Assembly (NCBI GenBank): GCA_016870775.1 | Contig: VGAK01000002.1 | Span: 1-64,000 of the forward strand | Reading direction: 5' to 3' | Length of the DNA stretch: 64,000 bases | Source of the DNA: Actinomycetota bacterium | Lineage (GTDB): Bacteria; Actinomycetota; Acidimicrobiia; Acidimicrobiales; Ilumatobacteraceae | In this document: positions 16,704-30,205 of the stretch, piece after piece | Numbering within the stretch: position 1 is the stretch's first letter | How the letters are laid out: every line of letters begins with the position of its first letter | Translations under genes and position numbers: made by a program | Notes under the pieces: model-generated | Database searches by the model: none | The model's input: only the letters and a program-made list of their open reading frames with translations | Told to the model about the DNA's origin: nothing

Positions 16704-17081
16704 ATGGCAAGAATTTCCGGCATCGACATCCCGCGCGAGAAGCGGCTCGAGATCGCCCTCACGTACGTCTTTGGTATCGGCCGTCCCACCGCCAAGCGCA
16801 TCTGCGAGTTGACGGGGCTCGATGCAAGCACCCGCGTGCGCGACCTGACAGAGGACGAATTGAACCGCATCCGCGCATGGATCGACCAGAACATCACGGT
16901 CGAGGGTGACCTGCGCCGCGACGTGCAGCAGGACATCAAGCGCAAGGTCGAGATCGGCTGTCTCCAGGGGGTGCGCCACCGCAAGGGCCTGCCCGTGCGT
17001 GGGCAGCGCACGCACACCAACGCGCGCACCCGCAAGGGACCGAAAAAGACCGTTGCCAACAAGAAGAAGGCAGTGAGGTAA
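16704..17081 (+). CDS. rpsM: 30S ribosomal protein S13
   Basis: 125 residues. [20 protein letters not shown] and the signature [19 protein letters not shown] are S13. It forms intersubunit bridges B1a and B1b and contacts the P-site tRNA through its basic tail. It begins at ATG 16704 and is followed after 5 nt by rpsK. Confidence 0.98.
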
Positions 17082-17086
17082 CTCCG

Positions 17087-17485
17087 ATGGCCAAGTCACA
17101 GGCGGGCGGCCGCCGTCCCCGCAAGCGCGAGCGCAAGAACGTCACGGCCGGTGTAGTCCACATCAAGAGCTCGTTCAACAACACGATCGTGTCGATCACC
17201 GACACCGAGGGCAACGTCATCGCATGGGCCTCCTCCGGTGGCGTGGGCTTCAAGGGCTCGCGCAAGTCGACCCCCTTCGCGGCCCAGATGGCCGCCGAGA
17301 AGGCCGCCAAGGCCGCGATGGAGCACGGTCTGCGTCGTGCCGAGGTGCACGTGAAGGGCCCGGGTTCGGGTCGCGACACCGCACTGCGCTCGATCCAGAA
17401 CGCGGGCATCGAGGTTTCCGGTATCAAGGACGTGACGCCGGTGCCGCACAACGGCTGTCGCCGTCCGAAGCGGGCGAGGAGCTGA
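17087..17485 (+). CDS. rpsK: 30S ribosomal protein S11
   Basis: 132 residues: [16 protein letters not shown], the signature [20 protein letters not shown], and the end [14 protein letters not shown]11 forms the platform and the mRNA exit channel with S7 and S18. ATG 17087 follows rpsM, and rpsD starts 2 nt after its stop. Confidence 0.98.
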
Positions 17486-17487
17486 CG

Positions 17488-18099
17488 ATGGCGCGCTACA
17501 CCGGACCGAGGGTGCGCGTCTCGCGTCGCCTGAGCACCAACATCTTCGAGAATCCCAAGGGTTCCCGCGCCCTCGACCGTCGTCCGTTCCCCCCGGGTGC
17601 GCACGGTCGCACGCGTCGGCGCGGACAGGGCAGCGAATACCTGGCCCAGATGCAGGAGAAGCAGAAGGCCAAGTACATCTACGGCGTGCTGGAGCGCCAG
17701 TTCCGTCGCACCTACGAGGAGGCCACTCGCCTCCAAGGCCCGACCGGCGAGAACCTGCTGCGTCTCCTCGAGCAGCGCCTCGACAACGTGGTGTTCCGCG
17801 CCGGGTGGGCCTCGACGCGTCCGCAGGCCCGTCAGTTCGTCTCTCACGGCCTGATCCAGGTGGACGGCAAGCGTGTCGATGTCGCGTCGTACCGCGTGCG
17901 CCGCGGAGACGTCGTCTCGCTGTCTCCCAGGGCGGCCCAGATGATCCAGATCCAGCACAACATCGACACCCTCGACCGTCCACTCGTCGGCTGGCTCGAG
18001 GGTGGTGACAAGCAGGTCACCGTGCGCGACCTGCCCCAGCGCGACCACATCGACGTGCCCGTTCGCGAGCAGCTCATCGTCGAGCTCTACTCGAAGTAA
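17488..18099 (+). CDS. rpsD: 30S ribosomal protein S4 (zinc-free type)
   Basis: 203 residues from ATG 17488. The N-terminus has no Cys residues, so the zinc-finger found in some S4 proteins is absent. LLRLLEQRLDNVVFRAGWAS and ARQFVSHGLIQVDGKRV form the S4 RNA-binding fold. It starts 30S assembly at the five-way junction and in E. coli represses the alpha operon. Confidence 0.97.
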   Translation: MARYTGPRVRVSRRLSTNIFENPKGSRALDRRPFPPGAHGRTRRRGQGSEYLAQMQEKQKAKYIYGVLERQFRRTYEEATRLQGPTGENLLRLLEQRLDNVVFRAGWASTRPQARQFVSHGLIQVDGKRVDVASYRVRRGDVVSLSPRAAQMIQIQHNIDTLDRPLVGWLEGGDKQVTVRDLPQRDHIDVPVREQLIVELYSK

Positions 18100-18125
18100 T
18101 CCCGGACACCCCACAGGAGCCCACC

Positions 18126-19058
18126 ATGCTTGTCATCCAGCGTCCCTCCGTCGAAGCACTCGGCGATGACCACCCCACGCGCCAGCGCTTCGCGGTCGGC
18201 CCGCTCGAACCCGGCTTTGGCCACACGATCGGAAACTCGCTGCGCCGCGCACTTCTCTCCTCGATCCCCGGCGCGGCGATCACCACGGTGAAATTCGACG
18301 CGGTCGAGCACGAGTTCTCCACCATCAAGGGCATGACCGAGGACGTCACCGAGTTCATCCTCAACCTGAAGGACGTCGTGGTGGTCTCGACCTCCGACGA
18401 GCCCGTCATGGTCCGCCTGGACGTTCGCGGCCCGAAGACCGTGACCGCGGCCGACCTTCCCGTGACCGCGGACTTCCAGGTGCTGAACCCGGAGCTCCAT
18501 CTCGTCACTCTCAATGCCGGTGGCCACCTGGCCGTCGACCTGACGATCGAGCGGGGGCGTGGGTACCTGTCGACCGATCGCGATGCCGACAGCCGCATCA
18601 TCGGTGTGATCCCGATCGACGCGATCTTCTCGCCGGTTCGCCGCGTCACCTTCGACGTCGAGCCGACCCGCGTGGCCCAGAGCACCAACTACGACCGTCT
18701 CGTCCTCGACATCGAGACCGACGGTTCGATCAGCCCGCGCGAGGCACTCGCCTCGTCGGCCGCGACGCTGCGCTCGCTCGTGGACCTCATCGCGACGCTC
18801 TCCGAGGAGCCCCAGTCCCTCGAATTGAGCGAGCCGATGGGCGCCAAGGAGAACGTTCCCGACCTGGACCTGCCGATCGAGGATCTCGACCTCTCCGAGC
18901 GTCCGAGGAACTGTCTGAAGCGCGCACAGATCAACACGATCGGCGAGCTGCTCATCCGCACGACCGACGATCTGCTCAACATCACCAACTTCGGCCAGAA
19001 GAGCCTGGATGAAATCATCCAGAAGCTCGATGAGCGCGGTCTCGCGTTGCGCGGCTGA
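18126..19058 (+). CDS. rpoA: RNA polymerase subunit alpha
   Basis: 310 residues. The N-terminal dimerisation domain contains EPGFGHTIGNSLRRALLSSI. The C-terminal domain (about 235-310) has the helix-hairpin-helix region LKRAQINTIGELLIRTTDDL that contacts upstream DNA and activators. It sits in the alpha operon between rpsD and rplQ. ATG 18126 follows CAGGAG. Confidence 0.98.
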   Translation: MLVIQRPSVEALGDDHPTRQRFAVGPLEPGFGHTIGNSLRRALLSSIPGAAITTVKFDAVEHEFSTIKGMTEDVTEFILNLKDVVVVSTSDEPVMVRLDVRGPKTVTAADLPVTADFQVLNPELHLVTLNAGGHLAVDLTIERGRGYLSTDRDADSRIIGVIPIDAIFSPVRRVTFDVEPTRVAQSTNYDRLVLDIETDGSISPREALASSAATLRSLVDLIATLSEEPQSLELSEPMGAKENVPDLDLPIEDLDLSERPRNCLKRAQINTIGELLIRTTDDLLNITNFGQKSLDEIIQKLDERGLALRG

Positions 19059-19084
19059 CCCAGTATTGGAAGAAGGGGACGATC

Positions 19085-19462
19085 ATGCCCACACCGCGCC
19101 GTGCACCACGATTCGGCGGCAGCGCCGCGCACCAGCGCCTGTTGCTCGCCAACATGGCCGCCTCGTTGTTCGCGGCCGAGGGGATCGTGACGACCGAGGC
19201 CAAGGCCAAGGCCCTGCGCCCGGTCGCAGAGAAGTTGATCACCAAGGCCAAGAAGGCCCACGGTTCCGAGGACGGCTCGGCCCGTCGCGTCCACCTCATG
19301 CGCCAGATCCAGGGGTACCTCGGCGACTCTGAGATGACCGCAAAACTGGTGAAGGAAGTCGCGCCGAGGTACGCCCAGCGCAACGGTGGGTACATCCGCA
19401 TCCTCAAGCTCGGCACCCGCCAGGGCGACGCCGCACCGATGGCGCGGATCGAACTGGTCTGA
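19085..19462 (+). CDS. rplQ: 50S ribosomal protein L17
   Basis: 125 residues. RAPRFGGSAAHQRLLLANMA and the end RILKLGTRQGDAAPMARIEL are L17. It lies near the tunnel exit. GAAGGGGACG precedes ATG 19085. It ends the alpha operon, and truA begins 49 nt later. Confidence 0.98.
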   Translation: MPTPRRAPRFGGSAAHQRLLLANMAASLFAAEGIVTTEAKAKALRPVAEKLITKAKKAHGSEDGSARRVHLMRQIQGYLGDSEMTAKLVKEVAPRYAQRNGGYIRILKLGTRQGDAAPMARIELV

Positions 19463-19511
19463 GTCGACCGCCAGCCTCGACGGGTCACCGACGACGGATC
19501 CGGGTGCGGCA

Positions 19512-20333
19512 GTGAGCAACCTGCCGGAGGACACGGGAATCGGACCCGCTCGCGGGCGCGTTCGTCTGCGCGTGACCTACCACGGGGCGGGGTTCCACGG
19601 GTTCGCCCGCAACGAGGCCGTCGACACCGTCGAGGCTGTGCTCGTTCACGCGGTCTCGACCGTGCTTGGCTCGAACGTGGAGATGAGTGCGGCTGGTCGC
19701 ACGGATGCGGGTGTCCACGCGAGGGGACAGGTCGTGTCGTTCGACGCACCGGTCGGCACCGATCTCACTGCGATGGTTCGTGGGGTCAATGCGCTCTGCG
19801 GACCCGCTGTCGCGGTCTCCGATGCGATGTGGACCGATCCCGGCTTCGATGCGCGACGCAGCGCGACATGGCGCTCGTACCGCTACACCGTCCTGAACCA
19901 GGCCGAGCCTGATCCGTTGCTCACCGACCGTGCCTGGCACGTGCCGCGACCACTCGACACGGTGCTCATGAACTTGGCCTGCGACGCACTGCACGGGGAG
20001 CAGGATTTTGCAGCGTTCTGCCGGCGGGCCGTGGGCCCCGACGGCGAGCACAAGTCGCTGCACCGGCGAGTATTTGTCGCGCGGTGGGTCGCGGGGGATC
20101 CTCCCGACGCAGGGCGAACCCTGGTCTTTGAGATCAGGGCCAACGCCTTCTGTCACCAGATGGTGCGCGCGATCGTCGGGTTCTGCGTCGATGTGGGTCT
20201 GCGCAAGCGACCCCCGAGTGACACCAGGGCCGTGCTGCTCGCCGGGGATCGTTCCCACGGGTCCCCCGTGGCTCCTCCGCACGGGCTCGTGCTGTGGGAC
20301 GTGGGCTACGACGGCACCCGCGTCCACCCCTGA
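19512..20333 (+). CDS. truA: tRNA pseudouridine(38-40) synthase TruA
   Basis: 273 residues from GTG 19512. The catalytic Asp lies in AAGRTDAGVHARGQVVSF. RLRVTYHGAGFHGFARN and the late FCHQMVRAIVGFCVDVG are typical of TruA. It converts U38, U39 and U40 of tRNA anticodon arms to pseudouridine. The position between rplQ and rplM is usual in actinobacteria. The exact start is uncertain because an in-frame reading extends upstream. Confidence 0.95.
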   Translation: MSNLPEDTGIGPARGRVRLRVTYHGAGFHGFARNEAVDTVEAVLVHAVSTVLGSNVEMSAAGRTDAGVHARGQVVSFDAPVGTDLTAMVRGVNALCGPAVAVSDAMWTDPGFDARRSATWRSYRYTVLNQAEPDPLLTDRAWHVPRPLDTVLMNLACDALHGEQDFAAFCRRAVGPDGEHKSLHRRVFVARWVAGDPPDAGRTLVFEIRANAFCHQMVRAIVGFCVDVGLRKRPPSDTRAVLLAGDRSHGSPVAPPHGLVLWDVGYDGTRVHP

Positions 20334-20446
20334 TCGGGTCCGGTCGGGCCGGTTGTGGGGGCGACGAGACCGCCCCTATCCTTGGCAAGTCCCTGAAACG
20401 ATGCGGTGCGCCGCTCGGTCCACGGGAAGCACCTCCGAGGATGTCC

Positions 20447-20890
20447 ATGCCGACCTACACACCCAAAATGAGCGAGATCGAGCGCGCCTGGCACGTCGTC
20501 GACGCCGAGGGCATGGTGCTCGGGCGCCTCTGCACCGAGGTCGCGCGCATCCTGCGCGGCAAGCACAAGCCGATCTTCGCCCCGCACCTGGACACCGGCG
20601 ACCACGTCATCATCGTGAATGCCTCCAAGATCGTGATGACCTCCGGCAAGGCCGACGCCAAGACCATCTACACCTACTCGGGCTACCCCGGCGGTCTGAA
20701 GAGCGAGTCGTACCGCACTCTGCTGGAGCGCAAGCCCGCCGATGCGATCCGCCGCTCGGTCGCGGGCATGCTGCCCAAGGGCCCCCTCGGGCGCCAGATG
20801 GTCGGGAAGTTGAAGGTGTACGCGGGCCCGGAGCACCCGCACGCCGCACAGAACCCCAAGGTCCTCGAGATCAGCGGCGCGAGGCGCTGA
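20447..20890 (+). CDS. rplM: 50S ribosomal protein L13
   Basis: 147 residues from ATG 20447, 6 nt after GAGG; ATG 20441 is possible. PTYTPKMSEIERAWHVVDAE aligns with actinobacterial L13, and SVAGMLPKGPLGRQM is the signature. L13 is an early 50S assembly protein. It is paired with rpsI in nearly all bacteria. Confidence 0.97.
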   Translation: MPTYTPKMSEIERAWHVVDAEGMVLGRLCTEVARILRGKHKPIFAPHLDTGDHVIIVNASKIVMTSGKADAKTIYTYSGYPGGLKSESYRTLLERKPADAIRRSVAGMLPKGPLGRQMVGKLKVYAGPEHPHAAQNPKVLEISGARR

Positions 20891-20916
20891 TCTCCCACGC
20901 CGCACAAGGAGCCGCA

Positions 20917-21312
20917 GTGTCCAACGCACCCCTCACCCAGACCACCGGCCGCCGCAAGGAGGCTGTCGCGCGCGCTGTCGTGCGAGCCGGCAGCGGAAAG
21001 GTCACCGTGAACGGACGGCCCATCGAGGCCTACTTCACGACCGCGACCCAGCGCATGGTCGTCACCGAGGCCCTCCGCGTCTCCGGGCGCGAGACCTCCT
21101 TCGACGTGGACGCCAACATCTTCGGGGGTGGCGTGAACGGTCAGGCCGGCGCGCTGCGCATGGCGATCGCCCGTTCACTGATCGAGATCGATCCCGAGTC
21201 GCGCCCCGCGCTCAAGAAGGCCGGTCTCCTCACCCGCGACTCGCGCCGCAAGGAGAGCAAGAAGTACGGCCTCAAGAAGGCGCGCAAGGCGCCGCAGTTC
21301 ACCAAGCGGTGA
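20917..21312 (+). CDS. rpsI: 30S ribosomal protein S9
   Basis: 131 residues from GTG 20917 (AAGGAG 8 nt upstream). GRRKEAVARAVVRAGSGKVT at the start, GGGVNGQAGALRMAIARSL in the middle, and the basic end KKARKAPQFTKR that touches the P-site tRNA. An 8-bp hairpin (21316-21334) follows immediately. Confidence 0.98.
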   Translation: MSNAPLTQTTGRRKEAVARAVVRAGSGKVTVNGRPIEAYFTTATQRMVVTEALRVSGRETSFDVDANIFGGGVNGQAGALRMAIARSLIEIDPESRPALKKAGLLTRDSRRKESKKYGLKKARKAPQFTKR

Positions 21313-21315
21313 GCA

Positions 21316-21334
21316 TCTCCCGCCGCGCGGGAGA
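21316..21334 (+). terminator. Hairpin after rpsI
   Basis: TCTCCCGC-CGC-GCGGGAGA, an 8-bp stem with a 3-nt loop and no T-tract. It lies between rpsI and glmM and may be a weak terminator or attenuator. Confidence 0.5.
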
Positions 21335-21346
21335 AGACCACGAACC

Positions 21347-22675
21347 ATGCTGACCTTCGGAACAGACGGTGTCCGTGGCGTGGCCATCGACGAGCTGACA
21401 CCGGCACTGGCGCGCGACCTCGGTCGTGCCGTGGCGAGGGTGCTGAGACCCGCCACCGTCGTCATCGGGCGCGACACCCGGGAGAGCGGGCGCATTCTCG
21501 AGTCCGCCGTCGTGGAGGGATGTGCCGCAGAGGGAGTCCCGGTGCGCCTGATGGGTGTCGCGCCGACGCCCGCGGTGGCCTTCGCGGCCGAGCGTCACGG
21601 TTGGATCGGCATCGCGATCACCGCCTCGCACAATCCCTGGACGGACAACGGCATCAAGGTCTTCGCCGCCGGTGGCGCGAAACTCAGCGATGCCGAGCAG
21701 ATCGAGATCGAGCGGAAGTGGCACTCCATCTCCACGGAGCCGACCGCGGCGGCGATCGGCACGGTGACCCCGGCCGACGAGGTCCTCGGCGAGTACTTCG
21801 AGCACCGGGTCGGTGTCGTCGGGGTGAGGGCGCTCGAGGGACTGAGAGTCGTCATCGACTGTGCGAACGGCGCGATGTCGGCTGTCGCACCCGCGGTGCT
21901 CGCCGCGGCCGGCGCCACGGTGGTCGCGATCAACGACGCACCGGATGGTCGCAACATCAACGATGCCTGTGGAGCGACCTCACCCGGGATGCTCCTCACG
22001 GCCGTTGTCGCCAACGGCGCCGATCTCGGTGTCGCCTTCGACGGCGACGGCGACCGTCTCGTGGCTGCCGATGCCTCGGGCAACCTCGTCGACGGGGACC
22101 AGTTGATCCTCGTCGCCGCAATCGATCTCGCCGCACGGGGCCTGTTGCGACACCGTGGTGTCGCGGTGACGGTGATGTCGAATCTCGGGCTCGTGCGCGA
22201 ACTCGAGTCCGCGGGAGTCGGTGTGATCGTGACCCCCGTGGGGGACCGCAGCGTGCTCGCCGCACTGGAGGAGAACGACTTCGTCCTCGGTGGCGAGCAG
22301 AGTGGCCACATCGTGCACCGTGCCCACGCCACGACCGGCGATGGTCTTCTCGCGGCACTGCTGTTGTGCGAGTCGCTCGTGCGCCGGGGTGCCGTGCTCG
22401 CCGATGCCGCGCGCCTCGATCGGTATCCCCAGGTGCTCATCAACGTCGCGACACCGGCGCGCCTCGTCGATCCGGCCGCCGACGTCGCCACCGAGATCGA
22501 GGCGGCCCGTGCGCGCCTCGGCGAGGACGGCCGCGTGGTGGTGCGCGCATCGGGCACCGAAGCACTCGTGCGGGTGATGGTCGAGGCGCGAGACGAGCGC
22601 ATTGCGCGCGAGACGGCCGCATCGATCGCGGATGCTCTCGTGTCGCGCCACGACGGGGTCATTCTCGGGCGATGA
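21347..22675 (+). CDS. glmM: Phosphoglucosamine mutase
   Basis: 442 residues. FGTDGVRG opens the protein, TASHNPWTDNGIKVF carries the phosphorylated Ser, DGDGDR is the Mg loop and RASGTEALVRVMVE binds phosphate. It converts glucosamine-6-phosphate to glucosamine-1-phosphate for UDP-GlcNAc and peptidoglycan. ATG 21347. It is followed by the GlmS-like gene, so two successive steps are neighbours. Confidence 0.97.
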   Translation: MLTFGTDGVRGVAIDELTPALARDLGRAVARVLRPATVVIGRDTRESGRILESAVVEGCAAEGVPVRLMGVAPTPAVAFAAERHGWIGIAITASHNPWTDNGIKVFAAGGAKLSDAEQIEIERKWHSISTEPTAAAIGTVTPADEVLGEYFEHRVGVVGVRALEGLRVVIDCANGAMSAVAPAVLAAAGATVVAINDAPDGRNINDACGATSPGMLLTAVVANGADLGVAFDGDGDRLVAADASGNLVDGDQLILVAAIDLAARGLLRHRGVAVTVMSNLGLVRELESAGVGVIVTPVGDRSVLAALEENDFVLGGEQSGHIVHRAHATTGDGLLAALLLCESLVRRGAVLADAARLDRYPQVLINVATPARLVDPAADVATEIEAARARLGEDGRVVVRASGTEALVRVMVEARDERIARETAASIADALVSRHDGVILGR

Positions 22676-22686
22676 GGATCGGAAAG

Positions 22687-22692
22687 TAGCCT
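22687..22692 (+). promoter_or_regulatory. -10 box of leaderless glmS-like gene
   Basis: TAGCCT, 7 nt before ATG 22700, with no SD. This spacing predicts a transcript starting at or next to the A of ATG. Confidence 0.5.
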
Positions 22693-22699
22693 CGCAATC

Positions 22700-25600
22700 A
22701 TGTGCGGCATCATCGGCATCGTGTCACGCCCGGGCACCCGGGTCGCCCCCGCCGACGCCGAGATCACCGGTCTCTTGGAGGCTGCCGTGCTGTCGGCGGA
22801 GTCCGGAGCACTCGAGGATGCGGCAGCTGCACTGTCGGGGGTCGACGCACTCCTGAAGGGCGATGCCGGCATCGAGGCGATGGCGGGCAATCTCGTGCTC
22901 GCCGTCGCGATCACGTCGGCGCTGGATCGGATCGACGCGGTCACCGCGGCTCGTGAGACCGCCCTCGACGCGCTGCACGCCGACCAAGCCGCGATCGATC
23001 GGGAGTCCGCCCGGCTCTCGGCGGTGATGGACCCATCGTGGGCGATCCGTCGCGACAGGTTGCGCACTGCCTCGGCGGTGCACGAACTCGCCGGTCGACA
23101 CGCGCCGGTTCCCGCACTGCGGGGCTATCTCAGCATCCAACAGGCACTCTCGGCGATCGACCGCATGGAGGTCCGCGGTCGCGATTCTGCGGGTCTCGGA
23201 ATCCTGGTGTGGTCCGACGGAATCGCCGAGCTGGCCGGGCGCGAGCGCACAGAGATCGATCGGCGCGCCTCGGATCCGCTGTTCGTCAACGGAAGCGTCC
23301 GGCACTCGGGTTCGACGCTCGTCTTCGTCTACAAGGCCGCCGCCGAGATCGGCGAACTGGGTGACAACACGCGGGTGCTGCGTGGCGCGATCACGGGCGA
23401 CGAGTTGTTGCGCCGGGCACTCGCACTGCCTGGCGCGCGCACGACAGTGATCGGACACACTCGGTGGGCGAGCGTCGGAATCATCTCGGAGCCGAACGCC
23501 CATCCCGTCAACGGCGAGGAGCTCGGTGGATCGGCGACGGTCTCGCTCGCCGTGCTGAACGGTGACATCGACAACCACGCCGACCTGAAGGCGAGGCACG
23601 GACTGCGGATCGCAGATCCCATCACCACCGACGCCAAGGTCATCCCGGCGATCGTGGACCGGGGACGCGACGGTGGACTTGACGCATCGTTCTGCTCGGC
23701 GGTGGCCCAGTTCGAGGGTTCCACCGCGATCGCCTACTGCAACGCCGACGTCCCCGACGCGATGTGGCTGTCGCTCGCCGGGAGCGGTCAGGGCCTCTAT
23801 GTCGGGCTCGCCGAGGACAGATTCGTCGTGGCGAGCGAGCCCTACGGCGCCGTCGAGGAGACGTCGACGATGCTGCGCATGGACGGTGAATCGCTCGCCG
23901 ATCCCGCGCGGCCCGAGTCACGGGGCCAGATCGTGCGCCTCGGTGCCTCCCTCGCCGGCACGGTCGCGGGCATCGCTCGCACCGCCCACGATGGCACCGC
24001 GCTCCCCGTGACCGATGCCGACCTGCACGTCGCCGAGGTCACCACGCGCGACATCGACCGCGGCGATGCGCCCCACTTCCTCCTGAAGGAGATCACGGAG
24101 GCCCCGCGCAGTTTTGCCAAGACCATCCGTGGCCGCATCGACGTGAGGGGTGGACTGTCGGTCCCGGACCTGGATCCCTCCGTCCTGCCGGCGGACATCG
24201 GTGCGCGCCTCGCATCGGGGGCGATCACGAGGGTGCGCGTGATCGGTCAGGGGACGGCAGCGGTCGCCGGCACCTCCATCGTGCCCGTTCTCTCGTCGCT
24301 CGTCGGGTCGCGTCTGCGCATCGAGGCGTCCACGGCGACCGAACTCTCGGGCTTCGCGATGGAGGCCGACATGTCGGATCTCCTCGTCATCGCTGTGAGC
24401 CAGAGTGGCACCACCACGGACACGAACCGCACTGTCGACCTGGTGGCATCGCGCGGCGCCGCCGTGCTCGCGATAGTGAACAGGCGTGGGAGCGAGCTCG
24501 CCTCGAAGGCGCACGGCGTGTACTACACGTCCGACGGTCGCGACGTGGAGATGAGCGTGGCGAGCACGAAGGCCTTCTACGCACAGGTGGCGGCCGGCGC
24601 GGTGCTGGCATGTGCCATCGCCACCGCCATGGGTGGCACCGATCCCGTCGCGGTCGACAGGGTCCTCGCCTCGCTCACCGCGATGCCCGACGCGATGCGC
24701 GAGGTGATCGCGTCGCGGCCCGTCATCGCTGGGATCGCATCGCAGCACGCGCCCTCGCGTCGCTACTGGGCCGTGGTCGGCAACGGACCCAACACCGTCG
24801 CGGCCAATGAGGTCAGGATCAAGCTCTCGGAGCTCTGCTACAAGTCGATCTCCTGCGACGTCACCGAGGACAAGAAGCACATCGACCTGTCGTGCGAGCC
24901 GATGGTGCTCGTCTGCGCGGTCGGTCTCGCCGACGGCACCGCGACCGACGTCGCCAAGGAGGTGGCGATCTTCGCCGCGCACAAGGCGGTCCCGATCGTG
25001 TTCGCCACCGAGGGTGAGCCCCGCTTCGACGCCGCGGCCGCGGTGATCGCCGTCCCCCGGGTCGAGCCGACACTCGGCTTCGTGCTCTCGGCGATGGCCG
25101 GGCATCTCTTCGGTTACGAGGCTGCGCTCGCTATCGATGCCCTCGCGCGGCCGTTGCGCCGCCTGCGCGAGGTGGTGGAGCACGCCGTCGGCACCGGTGC
25201 CGACGGCGACACCGCGCTCGCCCGAGTGGAGCGCGAGATCTCCGTCGTGGCTCCGCAGTTCCTGTCAACTCTCGCCACCGGCCGTTACGACGGCAACCTC
25301 GAGGCCTCGACAGCCGTGCGGATCACGGCACTGCTGCGCACGCTCGGCTCCGACGACCCGATCGGTGAGTTCCAGCGCCAGACGGGTCGGGTGTCGAGCC
25401 CGTCGGTCCTGCTCGATGATCTCGTCTCAGCACTCACACGGGGCATCGATGAGTTGACCCGACCCATCGATGCGATCAAGCACCAGGCAAAGACCGTGAC
25501 CGTGGGCATCTCGCGCAGCGAGGAGGGTCTGCTCGACCGCCCGCTCGTGCGCGCGGTGCTCGAGGCCGGCGCGGCGCGCGAGAGCCTCGGGTATGCAACC

Positions 25601-26098
25601 CTCAAGGTCCTCGCAGCGCTCGACGCGGCTGTCGAGTCAGTCGCTGGTTTCACGCGGTACCGCGTCGAGGGAGACCCGGCCTCCACGACGGCGACGATCT
25701 CGATCCTGGAGCGTGGTGGCATCGCGCGCGAGCTCACCTCGCGCGTCGACAGCAATCCTGTCCTCGTCGGCACCAAGCGCCGCGTCGCCGCCGAGCAGGA
25801 GGTGCTCGTGGCACGTGGCCGCAAGGACGGGCGCACCGTCGTGATCGTGCCCGAGGTCAAGGGTGCCGAGACTGTCGGGCTCACTCTCGTGCATGTCGCG
25901 TTCAGGGACCGTCTCCCGGCGGCCACCGTGCGGCAGGTGCTGCAGGGATACGACCGTCGCTGGGACCGGCTCGTGGACTGGGTCACCGAGACCGAGGGAT
26001 CGTTCCGCGAGGATCGTCTCGCCGAGGTGTCGGTTGCGGATCTGTTGATCCTGCCGGTCTCGGAGAGCGCCGATCTGTGGCGCCGGCGGGGGCTCTGA
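22700..26098 (+). CDS. Very large GlmS-like protein (glutamine amidotransferase + two SIS domains + extra domains)
   Basis: 1132 residues, nearly twice the usual 600-610 of glucosamine-6-phosphate synthase. The N-terminal MCGIIGIVS carries the catalytic Cys2. About 130 residues of helical sequence are then inserted before RGRDSAG (about 158), the counterpart of YRGYDSAG. HTRWAS (about 251), NGDIDNHADL (about 287) and HFLLKEITEAPRSF (about 457) follow GlmS order. SIS1 has SQSGTTTDT (about 566) and STKAF (about 620); SIS2 has NEVRIKLSE (about 702) and KKHIDLS in place of KHGP. Residues from about 810 form an unknown domain of about 320 residues, without the GlmS ending. Being between glmM and acpS, it is probably this lineage's GlmS. 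Confidence 0.85.
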   Translation: MCGIIGIVSRPGTRVAPADAEITGLLEAAVLSAESGALEDAAAALSGVDALLKGDAGIEAMAGNLVLAVAITSALDRIDAVTAARETALDALHADQAAIDRESARLSAVMDPSWAIRRDRLRTASAVHELAGRHAPVPALRGYLSIQQALSAIDRMEVRGRDSAGLGILVWSDGIAELAGRERTEIDRRASDPLFVNGSVRHSGSTLVFVYKAAAEIGELGDNTRVLRGAITGDELLRRALALPGARTTVIGHTRWASVGIISEPNAHPVNGEELGGSATVSLAVLNGDIDNHADLKARHGLRIADPITTDAKVIPAIVDRGRDGGLDASFCSAVAQFEGSTAIAYCNADVPDAMWLSLAGSGQGLYVGLAEDRFVVASEPYGAVEETSTMLRMDGESLADPARPESRGQIVRLGASLAGTVAGIARTAHDGTALPVTDADLHVAEVTTRDIDRGDAPHFLLKEITEAPRSFAKTIRGRIDVRGGLSVPDLDPSVLPADIGARLASGAITRVRVIGQGTAAVAGTSIVPVLSSLVGSRLRIEASTATELSGFAMEADMSDLLVIAVSQSGTTTDTNRTVDLVASRGAAVLAIVNRRGSELASKAHGVYYTSDGRDVEMSVASTKAFYAQVAAGAVLACAIATAMGGTDPVAVDRVLASLTAMPDAMREVIASRPVIAGIASQHAPSRRYWAVVGNGPNTVAANEVRIKLSELCYKSISCDVTEDKKHIDLSCEPMVLVCAVGLADGTATDVAKEVAIFAAHKAVPIVFATEGEPRFDAAAAVIAVPRVEPTLGFVLSAMAGHLFGYEAALAIDALARPLRRLREVVEHAVGTGADGDTALARVEREISVVAPQFLSTLATGRYDGNLEASTAVRITALLRTLGSDDPIGEFQRQTGRVSSPSVLLDDLVSALTRGIDELTRPIDAIKHQAKTVTVGISRSEEGLLDRPLVRAVLEAGAARESLGYATLKVLAALDAAVESVAGFTRYRVEGDPASTTATISILERGGIARELTSRVDSNPVLVGTKRRVAAEQEVLVARGRKDGRTVVIVPEVKGAETVGLTLVHVAFRDRLPAATVRQVLQGYDRRWDRLVDWVTETEGSFREDRLAEVSVADLLILPVSESADLWRRRGL

Positions 26099-26105
26099 TC
26101 GGGTC

Positions 26106-26471
26106 GTGCGGGGTCTCGGTATCGATGCCGTCGAGGTCGGCAGGTTCCGTTCGCTCCTCGAGAGACGACCGCGACTGCGCGAGCGGCTCTTCACCCCGGC
26201 AGAACTCGCCTCGCTGGCATCCCGCGTGGACCAGGCACCATCGCTCGCTGCGCGCTTCGCCGTGAGGGAGGCGACGATGAAAGCGCTCGGGGTCGGTCTC
26301 GGGGCCTTCGACTTCCACGATGTGGAGGTGGAGAGCACCGAGGGAGGGGAGCCCCGTCTCGTGGTGAGGGGACGCGCTGCCGAACTGGCCCGCGAGGCGG
26401 GAGTGCACGACTGGAAGGTCTCGATCACGCACACCGACCAGATCGCAATGGCCATCGTGGCCGCACTCTGA
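26106..26471 (+). CDS. acpS: Holo-[acyl-carrier-protein] synthase
   Basis: 121 residues from GTG 26106. GLGIDAVEVGRFRSLLE holds the Mg-binding Asp, and RFAVREATMKALG matches the family FAAKEA motif. It transfers 4'-phosphopantetheine from CoA to ACP. The start lies 7 nt after the GlmS-like stop. The order glmS-acpS-nnr-alr is common in actinobacteria. Confidence 0.94.
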   Translation: MRGLGIDAVEVGRFRSLLERRPRLRERLFTPAELASLASRVDQAPSLAARFAVREATMKALGVGLGAFDFHDVEVESTEGGEPRLVVRGRAAELAREAGVHDWKVSITHTDQIAMAIVAAL

Positions 26472-26477
26472 CAGCCC

Positions 26478-26483
26478 TACGCT
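26478..26483 (+). promoter_or_regulatory. -10 box of leaderless nnr
   Basis: TACGCT, 6 nt before GTG 26490 with no SD, so nnr-alr-tsaE can start independently of acpS. Confidence 0.5.
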
Positions 26484-26489
26484 TGACGC

Positions 26490-27899
26490 GTGATTCCGGT
26501 GCTCACGCCCGAACAGATGCGCGCCGCCGACTCCGCAGCGCTCGCATCGGTGGTCGACGATGGTGTGTTCATCGCCCGTGCCGGCAGGGCAGTCGCCCAG
26601 GTCGCCCGCACGATGTTGGGTGGCACCTACGGCCGGAAGGTGGTCGTGGTCGCCGGCAAGGGCCACAACGGTGACGACGGCCGAGTCGCCGGACAGTGGC
26701 TCGCGCAGTGGGGCGCAAGGGTCAGGGTGCTCGATGCCGCGGCCGCCGCCGGTGAGTTCCTCGACCTCGGTGACGTCGACCTCGTGATCGACGCCGCCTA
26801 TGGCATCGGATTCCGAGGGGAGTGGTCGCCACCGATCGTGTGGGGTGTGCCCGTGCTCGCAGTCGACATCCCGAGCGGACTCGACGCGGGCACCGGCACC
26901 GTGAGCAGTGGTGTGTTGGTCGCGGACCGCACGGTCACCTTCGCGGCGCCGAAGACCGGGATGTTCTTCGGCGAGGGTCCTGCGGCGTGCGGCGAGATCG
27001 ATCTCGTCGACGTCGGCATCGACACCGCGGGCTGTGCCGATGTGTTCGTCGTCGAGACCGCCGATGTCGCGGCATGGCTCGAGCCGCGCGCGCGGGACGC
27101 CCACAAGTGGAACCATGCGCTGCGGGTCGTCGCGGGTTCACCCGGCATGGGTGGTGCGGCGGCGCTCGTCTCGGCGTCGGCGATGCGTGCCGGTGCGGGC
27201 ATCGTGCACCTGTCGTGGCGCGGGACCGAGTCGACAGTCCAGCCACCAACCGAGGTCGTCGGCCGGCAGCTGCCCGCCGACGGATGGGATCGGTTCGTCG
27301 CCGCCGACGCCGACCGGTTCGGTGCCATGGTCGTGGGACCCGGTCTTGGCCGCGGGGACGACGTGGGTGCCGAGGTGCGCTCGATGCTGGCGGCGTGCGC
27401 GCTCCCCACGGTCATCGACGGTGACGGCATCGCCGCCGCGATCGACCCGGCGGGGACCCACGAGACGCTGCGCGCCCGCGGAGCCGACACCCTGCTGACC
27501 CCGCACGACGGGGAGTTCGCGATGCTCGGTGGAGATGCGAACGACTCCGACCGCATTGCTGCGACCCGTCGTCTCGCCGCGGCGACCGGGTGCACCGTCC
27601 TGCGCAAGGGACCGACCACGATCGTGGCCGATCCCGAGGGGGCCGTGCTGCTGGTGGTCTCGGGTGACCAACGACTCGCGACCGCGGGGTCGGGCGATGT
27701 GCTCGCCGGCGTCGCGGGGGCATTCATGGCGCGGGGTCTCGCCGCACCGATCGCCGGTGCCGCCGCCGCACATGTGCACGGCCTCGCCGCCGCCGAGTGC
27801 GCGGTCGAGGGAACGATCGCCCGTGACCTCGTGGCCGCGATCGCCGACGTGCTCTCGGTCGTGTCCCGCACCGCCGTGGGAGGCGCCGATGTCGGTTGA
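26490..27899 (+). CDS. nnr: Bifunctional NAD(P)HX epimerase / ADP-dependent NAD(P)HX dehydratase
   Basis: 469 residues. The N-terminal half is the YjeF_N epimerase (LTPEQMRAADSAAL; VVAGKGHNGDDGRVAGQWL). The C-terminal half is the ribokinase-like dehydratase (WNHALRVVAGSPGMGGAAAL; GPGLGRGDD; LLTPHDGEFAML; ATAGSGDVLAGV). Together they repair hydrated NADH and NADPH. The start is GTG 26490 behind a leaderless-type -10. The end overlaps alr by 11 nt. Confidence 0.95.
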   Translation: MIPVLTPEQMRAADSAALASVVDDGVFIARAGRAVAQVARTMLGGTYGRKVVVVAGKGHNGDDGRVAGQWLAQWGARVRVLDAAAAAGEFLDLGDVDLVIDAAYGIGFRGEWSPPIVWGVPVLAVDIPSGLDAGTGTVSSGVLVADRTVTFAAPKTGMFFGEGPAACGEIDLVDVGIDTAGCADVFVVETADVAAWLEPRARDAHKWNHALRVVAGSPGMGGAAALVSASAMRAGAGIVHLSWRGTESTVQPPTEVVGRQLPADGWDRFVAADADRFGAMVVGPGLGRGDDVGAEVRSMLAACALPTVIDGDGIAAAIDPAGTHETLRARGADTLLTPHDGEFAMLGGDANDSDRIAATRRLAAATGCTVLRKGPTTIVADPEGAVLLVVSGDQRLATAGSGDVLAGVAGAFMARGLAAPIAGAAAAHVHGLAAAECAVEGTIARDLVAAIADVLSVVSRTAVGGADVG

Positions 27900-29019
27900 T
27901 TTCTCCTCGCGCTGGGCGCGTGCCGAGATCGACTCGTCAGCGATCACGCACAATGCCGCCACGCTCAGGGCCCTGGTCGCACCGTCACGCGTGTGGGCGG
28001 TTGTCAAGGCCAACGGCTACGGCCACGGGTCGGTCGAGGTCGCACAAGCTGCGCTGGCCGGAGGCGCCGATGGGCTCTGCGTCGCACTCGTCGACGAAGG
28101 TGTGGTCCTCCGCAGGGCTGGCATCACCGCACCCGTCCTCCTGCTCTCGGAGCAGCCGCACGACCAGGCTCCACTCATCGTGGGTTACGGACTGACCCCG
28201 ACGGTGACGACCACGATGGGTGCCGCCGCCATCGGCTCGGCCGGTGCACAGCAGGGTCGTGCCGTGCCGGTGCACCTGAAGGTGGACACGGGAATGCACC
28301 GTGTCGGTGTGTCCCCGCGCGAGGCGCTCCACCTCGCCCGCTACATCGATTCGCACGAGGGACTCGATCTGGAGGGCCTGTACACCCACTTCGCCGTCGC
28401 CGACGATCCCGAGCACCCCGCCAACGCGGCACAGGCCGGTCTCTTCGATGACGTGGTGTCGGCACTGCGCGCCGACGGGATCTCCCCCCGGATCGTCCAC
28501 GCCGCAAACAGTGCGGCCGCGCTCGCCGCGCCTGCGAGGCGCCTCGACATGGTCCGTGTGGGCATCGCCCTGTACGGACTCCAACCGGGCCCCGGCGTGG
28601 CGCACCTGTGCGCCGATCTGCGCCCGGCGATGCGGCTCGTCGCACGCGTGTCCGCCGTGCGGTGGATCGAGGAGGGGGAGGCCGTCTCCTACGGTCTGCG
28701 TCGTCCGGTGGACAAACGCTCGCTGATCGCCACCGTGCCGATCGGCTACGCCGACGGGGTCCCGCGCTCGCTCTGGTCGACGGGTGCGGGGGCGCTCGTG
28801 GGTGGAGTGGCGCGACCATTCGCCGGGACGATCACCATGGACCAGCTCATGCTCGACTGCGGTGACGACTCCTCGGTGGCTCCGGGCGACGAGGTGGTCC
28901 TCATCGGATCCCAGGGCACTGAGCGCATCACCGCCGACGACTGGGCCCGCGCCCTCGGCACGATCGGCTACGAGATCGTCTGCGGGATCGCCCCGCGCAT
29001 CGCGCGGAGACACCTGTGA
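27889..29019 (+). CDS. alr: Alanine racemase
   Basis: 376 residues from ATG 27889, which lies inside the end of nnr. The PLP lysine is K40 in VVKANGYGHG. MVRVGIALYG, EAVSYG and IGYADGVPRSLW are conserved, the second supplying the second-subunit Tyr region. It makes D-alanine for peptidoglycan. The stop overlaps the tsaE start by 4 nt. Confidence 0.96.
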   Translation: MSVDFSSRWARAEIDSSAITHNAATLRALVAPSRVWAVVKANGYGHGSVEVAQAALAGGADGLCVALVDEGVVLRRAGITAPVLLLSEQPHDQAPLIVGYGLTPTVTTTMGAAAIGSAGAQQGRAVPVHLKVDTGMHRVGVSPREALHLARYIDSHEGLDLEGLYTHFAVADDPEHPANAAQAGLFDDVVSALRADGISPRIVHAANSAAALAAPARRLDMVRVGIALYGLQPGPGVAHLCADLRPAMRLVARVSAVRWIEEGEAVSYGLRRPVDKRSLIATVPIGYADGVPRSLWSTGAGALVGGVARPFAGTITMDQLMLDCGDDSSVAPGDEVVLIGSQGTERITADDWARALGTIGYEIVCGIAPRIARRHL

Positions 29020-29507
29020 TCTCGTGCCTGTCGGGTTCCGAGGACGACACCCTCGCCATCGCGGCTGCGATCGCCCGGCTCGTGCGGCCCGGCGATGTCG
29101 TGCTGCTCGCGGGGGAGATGGGCTCGGGGAAGACGGCGTTCGCGCGCGGGTTCGCGCACGGACTCGGCGTCGCGGCCGACGATCACGTGGCGTCACCGAC
29201 GTTCAACCTGGTGCACGTCCACGACTCGGGCCGGGTGCCGTTGCACCATGCCGATCTCTTCCGGCTCCAGACCCGCGGAGAGATCGAGGATCTCGGCCTC
29301 CGCGAGGCGGCCGACATGGGATCGGTGGTGCTCGTCGAGTGGGGTGATGCCGCCCTCGACATCTTCGACGAGTGGCTGATCGTGGAGATCATCGATCCCG
29401 ACGGTGGGGCGATGCGCACCCTGGAGGCCTCGGTCGAGGGGCACCGATGGGATGCGCGGTGGGACCGCCTGTGCTCGGCCCTCGGCGACTGGTCGGGGCC
29501 CGCATGA
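29016..29507 (+). CDS. tsaE: tRNA t6A biosynthesis ATPase TsaE
   Basis: 163 residues from GTG 29016 (GTGA overlap with alr). The P-loop is AGEMGSGKTAFARGFA (residues 32-47), followed by ASPTFNLVHVH and HADLFRL. TsaE acts with TsaB and TsaD to make threonylcarbamoyladenosine at tRNA position 37. All three genes are here; tsaC is not. The end overlaps tsaB (ATGA). Confidence 0.95.
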   Translation: MISCLSGSEDDTLAIAAAIARLVRPGDVVLLAGEMGSGKTAFARGFAHGLGVAADDHVASPTFNLVHVHDSGRVPLHHADLFRLQTRGEIEDLGLREAADMGSVVLVEWGDAALDIFDEWLIVEIIDPDGGAMRTLEASVEGHRWDARWDRLCSALGDWSGPA

Positions 29508-30205
29508 TCCTGGGGATCGAGACTTCCGTGGAGCGGGTCGGTGTCGCCGTCGGTGACGGTCGCGGGATCGTCGCGTCGGCCCAGTTGTCGAGCGATCGTC
29601 GCCACGCCGAGTCGCTCGCACCGATGATCGCCTTCGTGCTCGACCAAGCGGGACTGGCCCCGACCGATCTGTCGGCGGTCGCGGTCGACGTCGGACCGGG
29701 ACTCTTCACGGGGATGCGCGTGGGGATCGCCACCGCCGATGCCATGGCGTGGGCACTCGAGATCCCCGTGGTGGGTGTGAGCAGCCTCGATGCGCTCGCT
29801 CTGGACGCGGCGCGAGGCGACGACACGATCGCAGTCGCACTCGACGCACGACGCGGCGAGATCTACTGGGCGCTGTACCGGCCCGCCGAGGGTGCGGCGG
29901 AGCCCGTGCGGATCGGCGAGCCGCGGGTGTCACCACCCGACGATGTCGTCGAGCATCTCGCCGACCGCGCCGAGGACGTCGTCTGCGCGGGGAACGGGTT
30001 CCTCCGCCACGCAGAGGCACTGGCCGCACCGTGGATGCACGTGCTCGGTGCGCAGTTCGCCGCACCGAGTGCAGAGGCCGTCGTCAGAATCGGGACCCAC
30101 AGGGTCGCCGTCGACGCCACGGTGCCGGCCGGGGGTGTCCAGCCGATCTACCTGCGCGCTCCCGATGCCGAGATCAACTGGCGCACGAGGCGGGAGTCAC
30201 GATGA
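29504..30205 (+). CDS. tsaB: tRNA t6A biosynthesis protein TsaB
   Basis: 233 residues from ATG 29504. MILGIETSVERVGVAV and the family signature VDVGPGLFTGMRVGIATADA are clear. It is an inactive ASKHA-fold partner that bridges TsaD and TsaE. It overlaps tsaE and rimI by 4 nt each, a tightly coupled set. Confidence 0.95.
   Translation: MILGIETSVERVGVAVGDGRGIVASAQLSSDRRHAESLAPMIAFVLDQAGLAPTDLSAVAVDVGPGLFTGMRVGIATADAMAWALEIPVVGVSSLDALALDAARGDDTIAVALDARRGEIYWALYRPAEGAAEPVRIGEPRVSPPDDVVEHLADRAEDVVCAGNGFLRHAEALAAPWMHVLGAQFAAPSAEAVVRIGTHRVAVDATVPAGGVQPIYLRAPDAEINWRTRRESR

Follow-up and report, generated by a model that had tools for sequence, protein, structure and literature searches.

What does a bacterial cell do with a glucosamine-6-phosphate synthase (GlmS) of nearly double size? 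The first amino-sugar precursor dedicated to the bacterial wall is made by GlmS, and in the window analysed here, a stretch of 64,000 nucleotides from an Actinomycetota bacterium (family Ilumatobacteraceae; contig VGAK01000002.1, positions 1 to 64,000), the usual place of glmS is taken by a single unbroken open reading frame (ORF) at 22700–26098 on the + strand, whose product of 1132 amino acids (aa) we call GlmS-L. We propose, with a probability of roughly three in four, that GlmS-L is the only GlmS of its cell and is regulated at the active-site lid by its C-terminal domain. The two parts of this proposal differ in strength: judged from sequence, the identity as sole glucosamine-6-phosphate synthase is highly likely, while the structural model leaves it evenly balanced whether the lid is moved by a C-terminal domain that senses a metabolite.

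Occurrence and genomic place of the long enzyme

This ORF of 1132 codons is genuine and conserved. The best 80 of 584 loci encoding relatives, taken from named genome records, are 58–73% identical to GlmS-L, so that it is more than a chance ORF, and complete long rows measure 1114–1166 aa. The uninterrupted gene between glmM and acpS, as described in an earlier sequence-only reading, was verified for the frame and for both neighbours.

The occurrence survey covered Actinomycetota genomes, with long and standard forms counted by hand from tables. In a class sample of 197 genomes, at least 90% complete except for the window's own, 79 carried GlmS-L and 112 a standard GlmS over the cut-off, none carried both and no family contained both kinds, where up to three candidates per genome were scored from the long-protein search and up to six from the GlmS-model search and a further copy could escape in a few genomes. 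In the rest of the sample, standard fragments below the cut-off were found in two genomes (G170, G183), and four (G090, G150, G165, G177) gave no match to the long protein. The sequence-only reading had regarded a normal-length glmS elsewhere, together with lost active-site residues, as the sign that this is not the GlmS of the cell. Neither was found: no standard GlmS exceeded the cut-off in any of the 79 long-form genomes, nor in any of ten complete or near-complete long-form genomes in which all candidates were scored, four of them single-contig, at least 99% complete and within the same family or order as the window. Among 41 relatives, with all candidates scored save in G029 and G030, the long form was present in 36 (in some as fragments), the standard form only in 4, neither in 1 and both in none. 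A phylum sample of 296 genomes, with up to two candidates scored in each, contained 27 with the long form. Seven of these fall outside the class and belong to families f61, f68, f88 and f91; in every one of the four families there is also a genome with a best match of the standard kind. The window's own 1.74-Mb draft yielded one SIS and one GATase_6 match, both of them GlmS-L; since this draft is 80% complete and also lacks a second glutaminase match such as PurF, the missing second GlmS is weak evidence there.

Both forms usually occupy the slot glmM-glmS-acpS-nnrD-alr. Forty regions were examined, 29 with a standard glmS, to which glmM adjoined or lay within about 2 kb in 24, and 11 with the long gene, which adjoined glmM in six and in one further case was found with nnrD and alr where the contig ends. 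As a rule, the slot stays the same and one gene takes the place of the other. In the remaining four long regions (L151, L152, L153 and L155, families f68 and f91) none of ten other neighbour genes searched for was found, a setting that suggests horizontal gain or rearrangement. The genome G256 shows 5% contamination, and its long copy may be foreign.

Because 79 and 112 genomes were found without overlap, and because the slot is usually the same, GlmS-L very probably serves as GlmS in these cells rather than being a paralogue.

Active site, lid and added segments

This identity gains from the active site, since the catalytic residues are intact, no standard GlmS was found beside the long one and the operon slot is usually shared. 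In GlmS-L, Cys2, Arg255/Trp256, Asn287/Gly288, Asp311, SQSGTTT at 567–573, Glu704/Lys708/Glu711, His727 and Lys931 are kept. Twenty-six long rows were compared with as many others, namely 25 standard ones and L159, which is really a truncated long copy. All 26 long rows agreed with E. coli GlmS at Cys1, Arg26, Arg73, Trp74, Asn98, Gly99 and Asp123 in the glutaminase half and at Gly301, Ser347, Gln348, Ser349, Thr352, Val399, Ser401, Lys403, Glu481, Lys485, Glu488, His504, Ala602 and Lys603 in the SIS half and tail, with Thr302 kept in 25. Thr76 was changed to Ser in all 26, and Ser303 to Ala, a residue that 8 of the 26 others have as well. We take Arg73, Trp74, Asn98, Gly99 and Asp123 to be the N-terminal cysteine glutaminase residues of GlmS and Ser347-Gln348-Ser349-Thr352 its phosphate loop. 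For Glu488, His504 and Lys603 the catalytic role in the isomerase, and for Cys1 that in the glutaminase, are stated in PMC9272926.

The C-terminal tail that closes the active site had been thought missing from the sequence, but it is present further upstream than the protein's end. The lid sequence KHQAKTVTVG occupies 927–936, with Ala930-Lys931 equivalent to E. coli Ala602-Lys603 in all 26 long rows, and upon superposition on E. coli GlmS (1jxa) the predicted structure aligned over model residues 2..937 in the order glutaminase-SIS-SIS-lid, ending with residue 937 opposite E. coli residue 608. The lid is internal and not C-terminal, as a 102-residue helical insert shifts it downstream and the extension follows it. 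Consequently, about 320 residues do follow residue 811, as had been noted, but they comprise this insert, the tail and a 196-aa extension (936–1131). The insert of about 130 residues described within the amidotransferase domain was recovered as 132 aa, placed by alignment behind position 9 of the E. coli enzyme, counted with Met=1, and smaller glutaminase-domain inserts relative to E. coli GlmS lie at 173–197, 203–210, 228–243 and 397–408. Identity to E. coli GlmS is 26% over aligned positions (156/601). Pfam assigned SIS and GATase_6 to the whole product, while the four added stretches gave one match only, to VbhA, which is below the cut-off (E 0.02) and was read as chance. Coordinates are collected in Table 1.

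Table 1. Positions in the window of glmS-L, its adjoining genes and the segments of its product (pLDDT, predicted local distance difference test)
Feature	Position	Strand	Remarks
glmM, phosphoglucosamine mutase (next pathway step)	21347..22675	+	NCBIfam, 453 bits against cut-off 447.55
glmS-L, GlmS-type glutamine amidotransferase / sugar-phosphate isomerase, 1132 aa	22700..26098	+	
Residues 1-9, first glutaminase strand	22700..22726	+	Cys2 (E. coli Cys1)
Residues 10-141, 132-aa insert	22727..23122	+	modelled mostly helical (pLDDT blocks 81-98)
Residues 142-447, remaining glutaminase domain	23123..24040	+	RGRDSAG, HTRWAS, NGD, TTD
Residues 456-811, two SIS subdomains	24065..25132	+	SQSGTTTDT 567-575, VASTKAF 620-626, E704/K708/E711, H727
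Residues 812-913, 102-aa helical insert	25133..25438	+	between SIS2 and active-site tail
Residues 914-935, GlmS active-site tail (lid)	25439..25504	+	...KHQAKTVTV; Lys931 = E. coli Lys603
Residues 936-1132, C-terminal extension (about 196 aa)	25505..26095	+	943-1132 predicted PAS/GAF-like domain
acpS	26106..26471	+	NCBIfam; in most relatives examined, standard glmS occupies the same glmM-glmS-acpS slot

The C-terminal domain and the competing explanations

Predicted alone, residues 943–1132 gave a model (pLDDT 93.9) whose fold may be PAS/GAF-like. The best structural match lay within the 180-kDa glutamate dehydrogenase of mycobacteria, an enzyme different from GlmS-L, in an N-terminal segment for which sensor domains have been proposed (TM-score by query length 0.43). 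A profile of residues 905–1132 gave no match in a sequence search of the Protein Data Bank at E up to 5, the C-terminal 321 aa gave none against plasmids at E up to 1, and scanning the C-terminal stretch in 26 members yielded scattered weak matches only (best E 0.0059). As a separate observation, the large glutamate dehydrogenase (L174–L207) occurs in the long-form genomes G042, G066, G153 and G026, and it was not found in the 80% complete draft of the window.

We propose a mechanism in which Cys2 would release ammonia from glutamine, the ammonia would be channelled to the SIS domain (the equivalent of the ammonia-gate Trp74 is kept) and fructose-6-phosphate would be converted to glucosamine-6-phosphate using Glu711, His727 and Lys931. 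The lid strand bearing Lys931 would be anchored on one side by the helical insert 812–913 and on the other by the PAS/GAF-like domain 943–1132, and a ligand of this domain, a nitrogen or amino-sugar metabolite, might open or close the site and thereby set the flux as an on-enzyme allosteric control; the N-terminal helical insert would probably serve assembly or domain contacts. PMC9272926 describes bacterial GlmS as controlled after transcription and not on the enzyme, and UDP-GlcNAc as controlling the eukaryotic one. Should the sensor idea hold, a bacterial GlmS would be under allosteric control, with sensor and lid physically connected within one protein. Rfam, including the glmS ribozyme, gave no match at the gathering score in 17000–30000. 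Of the expanded and perhaps regulated synthase considered in the sequence-only reading, the expanded GlmS is supported by residues, sole copy and slot, and the regulation is plausible only.

Several observations weigh against a sole GlmS regulated at its lid. The TIGR01135 (GlmS) score of GlmS-L is 196 bits, below the curated NCBIfam cut-off of 418.05. Near the active site, His77 is replaced by Val in 24 and Met in 2 of the 26 long rows, Cys300 by Gln, His493 by Ser (22) or Ala (4), Asn600 by His and Leu601 by Gln, and Gly505 and Pro506 have become Ile and Asp. The change of KHGP seen in the sequence is real, the motif reading KHID, although the catalytic His504 is retained as His727 in all 26. 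Given these sequence changes near the site, there is room for altered kinetics or another substrate. In the monomer model, pLDDT falls below 50 in the lid (923–942) as well as at 258–263 and 547–552. Sequence kinship between the C-terminal domain and the glutamate dehydrogenase domain gained no support from profile comparisons, which gave hhalign probabilities below 1% (0.8% and 0.7%, from thin profiles with an effective sequence number, Neff, of 1.9–4.3). Finally, PF01182, which is NagB-type and covers other enzymes too, was found in 9 of 13 long-form genomes, where the matches could be NagB or another family member.

The alternative that survives best is an unregulated replacement GlmS, whose added segments serve structure, through dimer or tetramer contacts or stability, and transmit no ligand signal; we give it rather less than an even chance. 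Conservation, expressed as mean majority identity and invariant positions in an alignment of 53 rows, bears on it from both sides. The mostly helical N-terminal insert (15–140) is the least conserved part (54%, 7/126 invariant), as would suit a structural element, followed by the helical insert 815–920 (66%, 9/106), and the invariant share of the C-terminal domain (943–1132, 43/190) is lower than that of the SIS part (456–814, 135/359). However, the mean identity of this domain, 76%, lies between the 72% of the remaining glutaminase part (141–445, 87/305) and the 79% of the SIS part, many of its invariant residues are charged (among them R986, K1026, R1041, D1043, R1045, E1052, H1065, D1085, R1087, E1097 and E1099), and it is joined directly to the strand of the lid, which with 95% and 15/20 invariant positions (921–940) tops all stretches compared. 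An absence of regulation would further agree with the tie of the domain to known sensors being by predicted structure alone, and with an oligomeric state that, according to PMC9272926, differs in eukaryotic GlmS too.

It is unlikely that the long form spread by resisting natural GlmS inhibitors, which comprise glutamine analogues and sugar-phosphate analogues, and thereby displaced a sensitive form: its distribution is patchy by family, with both kinds in different genomes of the four families outside the class, and loops around the SIS site are altered, but the substrate-binding residues are mostly unchanged. A paralogue with a different sugar-phosphate substrate that is not the GlmS of the cell, the other alternative of the sequence-only reading, is the least probable of all, since the low GlmS score and the changes at Cys300, His493, Gly505-Pro506 and Asn600-Leu601 are opposed by the equivalents of the phosphate loop, Lys485, Glu488, His504 and Lys603 kept in 26/26 rows, by the absence of a standard GlmS over the cut-off from all 79 long-form genomes of the class sample, by the mostly unchanged operon slot adjoining glmM and by four of 13 long-form genomes, the window's included, in which PF01182 was not found, and since the argument from a missing tail was wrong.

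Divergence, known systems and pathway neighbours

A quick tree of 604 core columns with 26 standard and 26 long rows separated the two kinds with support 100 along a single branch of 2.74 + 3.74 changes per column, i.e. about 6.5 changes per site between GlmS-L and all standard GlmS sampled. Of 34 standard-glmS regions 26 entered the tree (L131, L133, L137, L142, L144, L164, L165 and L171 were left out, as was the truncated L159), and the standard side comprised E. coli, Bacteroides, Sinorhizobium, a Firmicute and Actinomycetota, with the Haloferax row not included. In the SIS half of 6 standard and 10 long rows, identity was 47% among standard, 67% among long and 28% between standard and long rows. 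Judged by these alignments, GlmS-L forms a lineage of its own within the GlmS fold, and a deeply diverged one. With AgaS and FrlB of E. coli as outgroups, the rooting of an SIS tree was uninformative and gives no order of age for the standard and long forms: both outgroup end branches measured about 10, AgaS was placed beside the long rows, and 8 of the 14 standard rows and 3 of the 13 long ones were lost in this run. That GlmS-L represents an ancient second kind of amino-sugar-forming enzyme, with a PAS/GAF-like sensor wired to its lid, which displaced standard GlmS across many families of the class and in some other Actinomycetota, is a tentative extension to which we lend slightly less than even credence.

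Compared with bacterial GlmS (TIGR01135; E. coli 1jxa/2j6h), GlmS-L shares the order glutaminase-SIS-SIS-lid, the checked catalytic residues and the usual place by glmM, but differs in length (1132 against about 610 aa), in three large additions and in its internal lid. Chains of the eukaryotic GFAT-1 (6r4i, 6svm) have about 650 residues, of which 587–600 were aligned. The SIS-only enzymes NagB-II and AgaS (7kqa, 3c3j), which presumably lack a glutaminase domain, are a weaker structural match than GlmS. We place GlmS-L, by its sequence features, as a deep lineage of the GlmS kind, without filing it under TIGR01135, because it reaches neither the score of the curated model nor falls into the range of 589–716 residues given for GlmS subunits in PMC9272926. 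No description of an enlarged GlmS in Acidimicrobiia was found in the open-licence literature searched. Many families use this very distant, double-size GlmS, never alongside a standard one in our sample, and since the curated model rejects GlmS-L, model-based annotation may miss GlmS in long-form lineages.

In the window, glmM and glmS-L are spaced by 24 nt and glmS-L and acpS by 7 nt; acpS is followed by an NnrD-type NAD(P)H-hydrate repair gene, alr and tsaE (NCBIfam). A further observation concerns GlmU. In the window's genome (G000:C13:34711-35766, L212), as in G021, G066 and G026 (L213, L214, L215), GlmU ends near E. coli residue 347 and lacks the stretch of His363, Tyr366, Asn386 and Lys392, which we take to be the acetyltransferase site. 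Matches ended at 344–362 of 452 and stayed below the cut-off in 8 of 9 long-form genomes, as they also stayed below it in 5 of 14 control genomes; the long-form genome G043 has a full-length GlmU. Where GlmU is short, its sequence implies that another enzyme must acetylate the sugar phosphate, because the stretch of the acetyltransferase site is absent. The C-terminal domain of GlmS-L was rejected as this stand-in, given that G043 combines a full-length GlmU with a GlmS-L carrying the same domain; fold searches of the domain returned no acetyltransferase among the best 50 matches each.

Two loci, G034:C1:1179740-1183184 and G210:C38:21547-24516, contain the long gene as two adjoining pieces, either broken or due to sequencing error. 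Seven further loci (L046, L049, L053, L066, L067, L085 and L095) stem from drafts titled, for example, Bifidobacterium breve, Ferrithrix or Acidobacteria; their long glmS is 59–61% identical to that of the window, and the titles look like misnomers.
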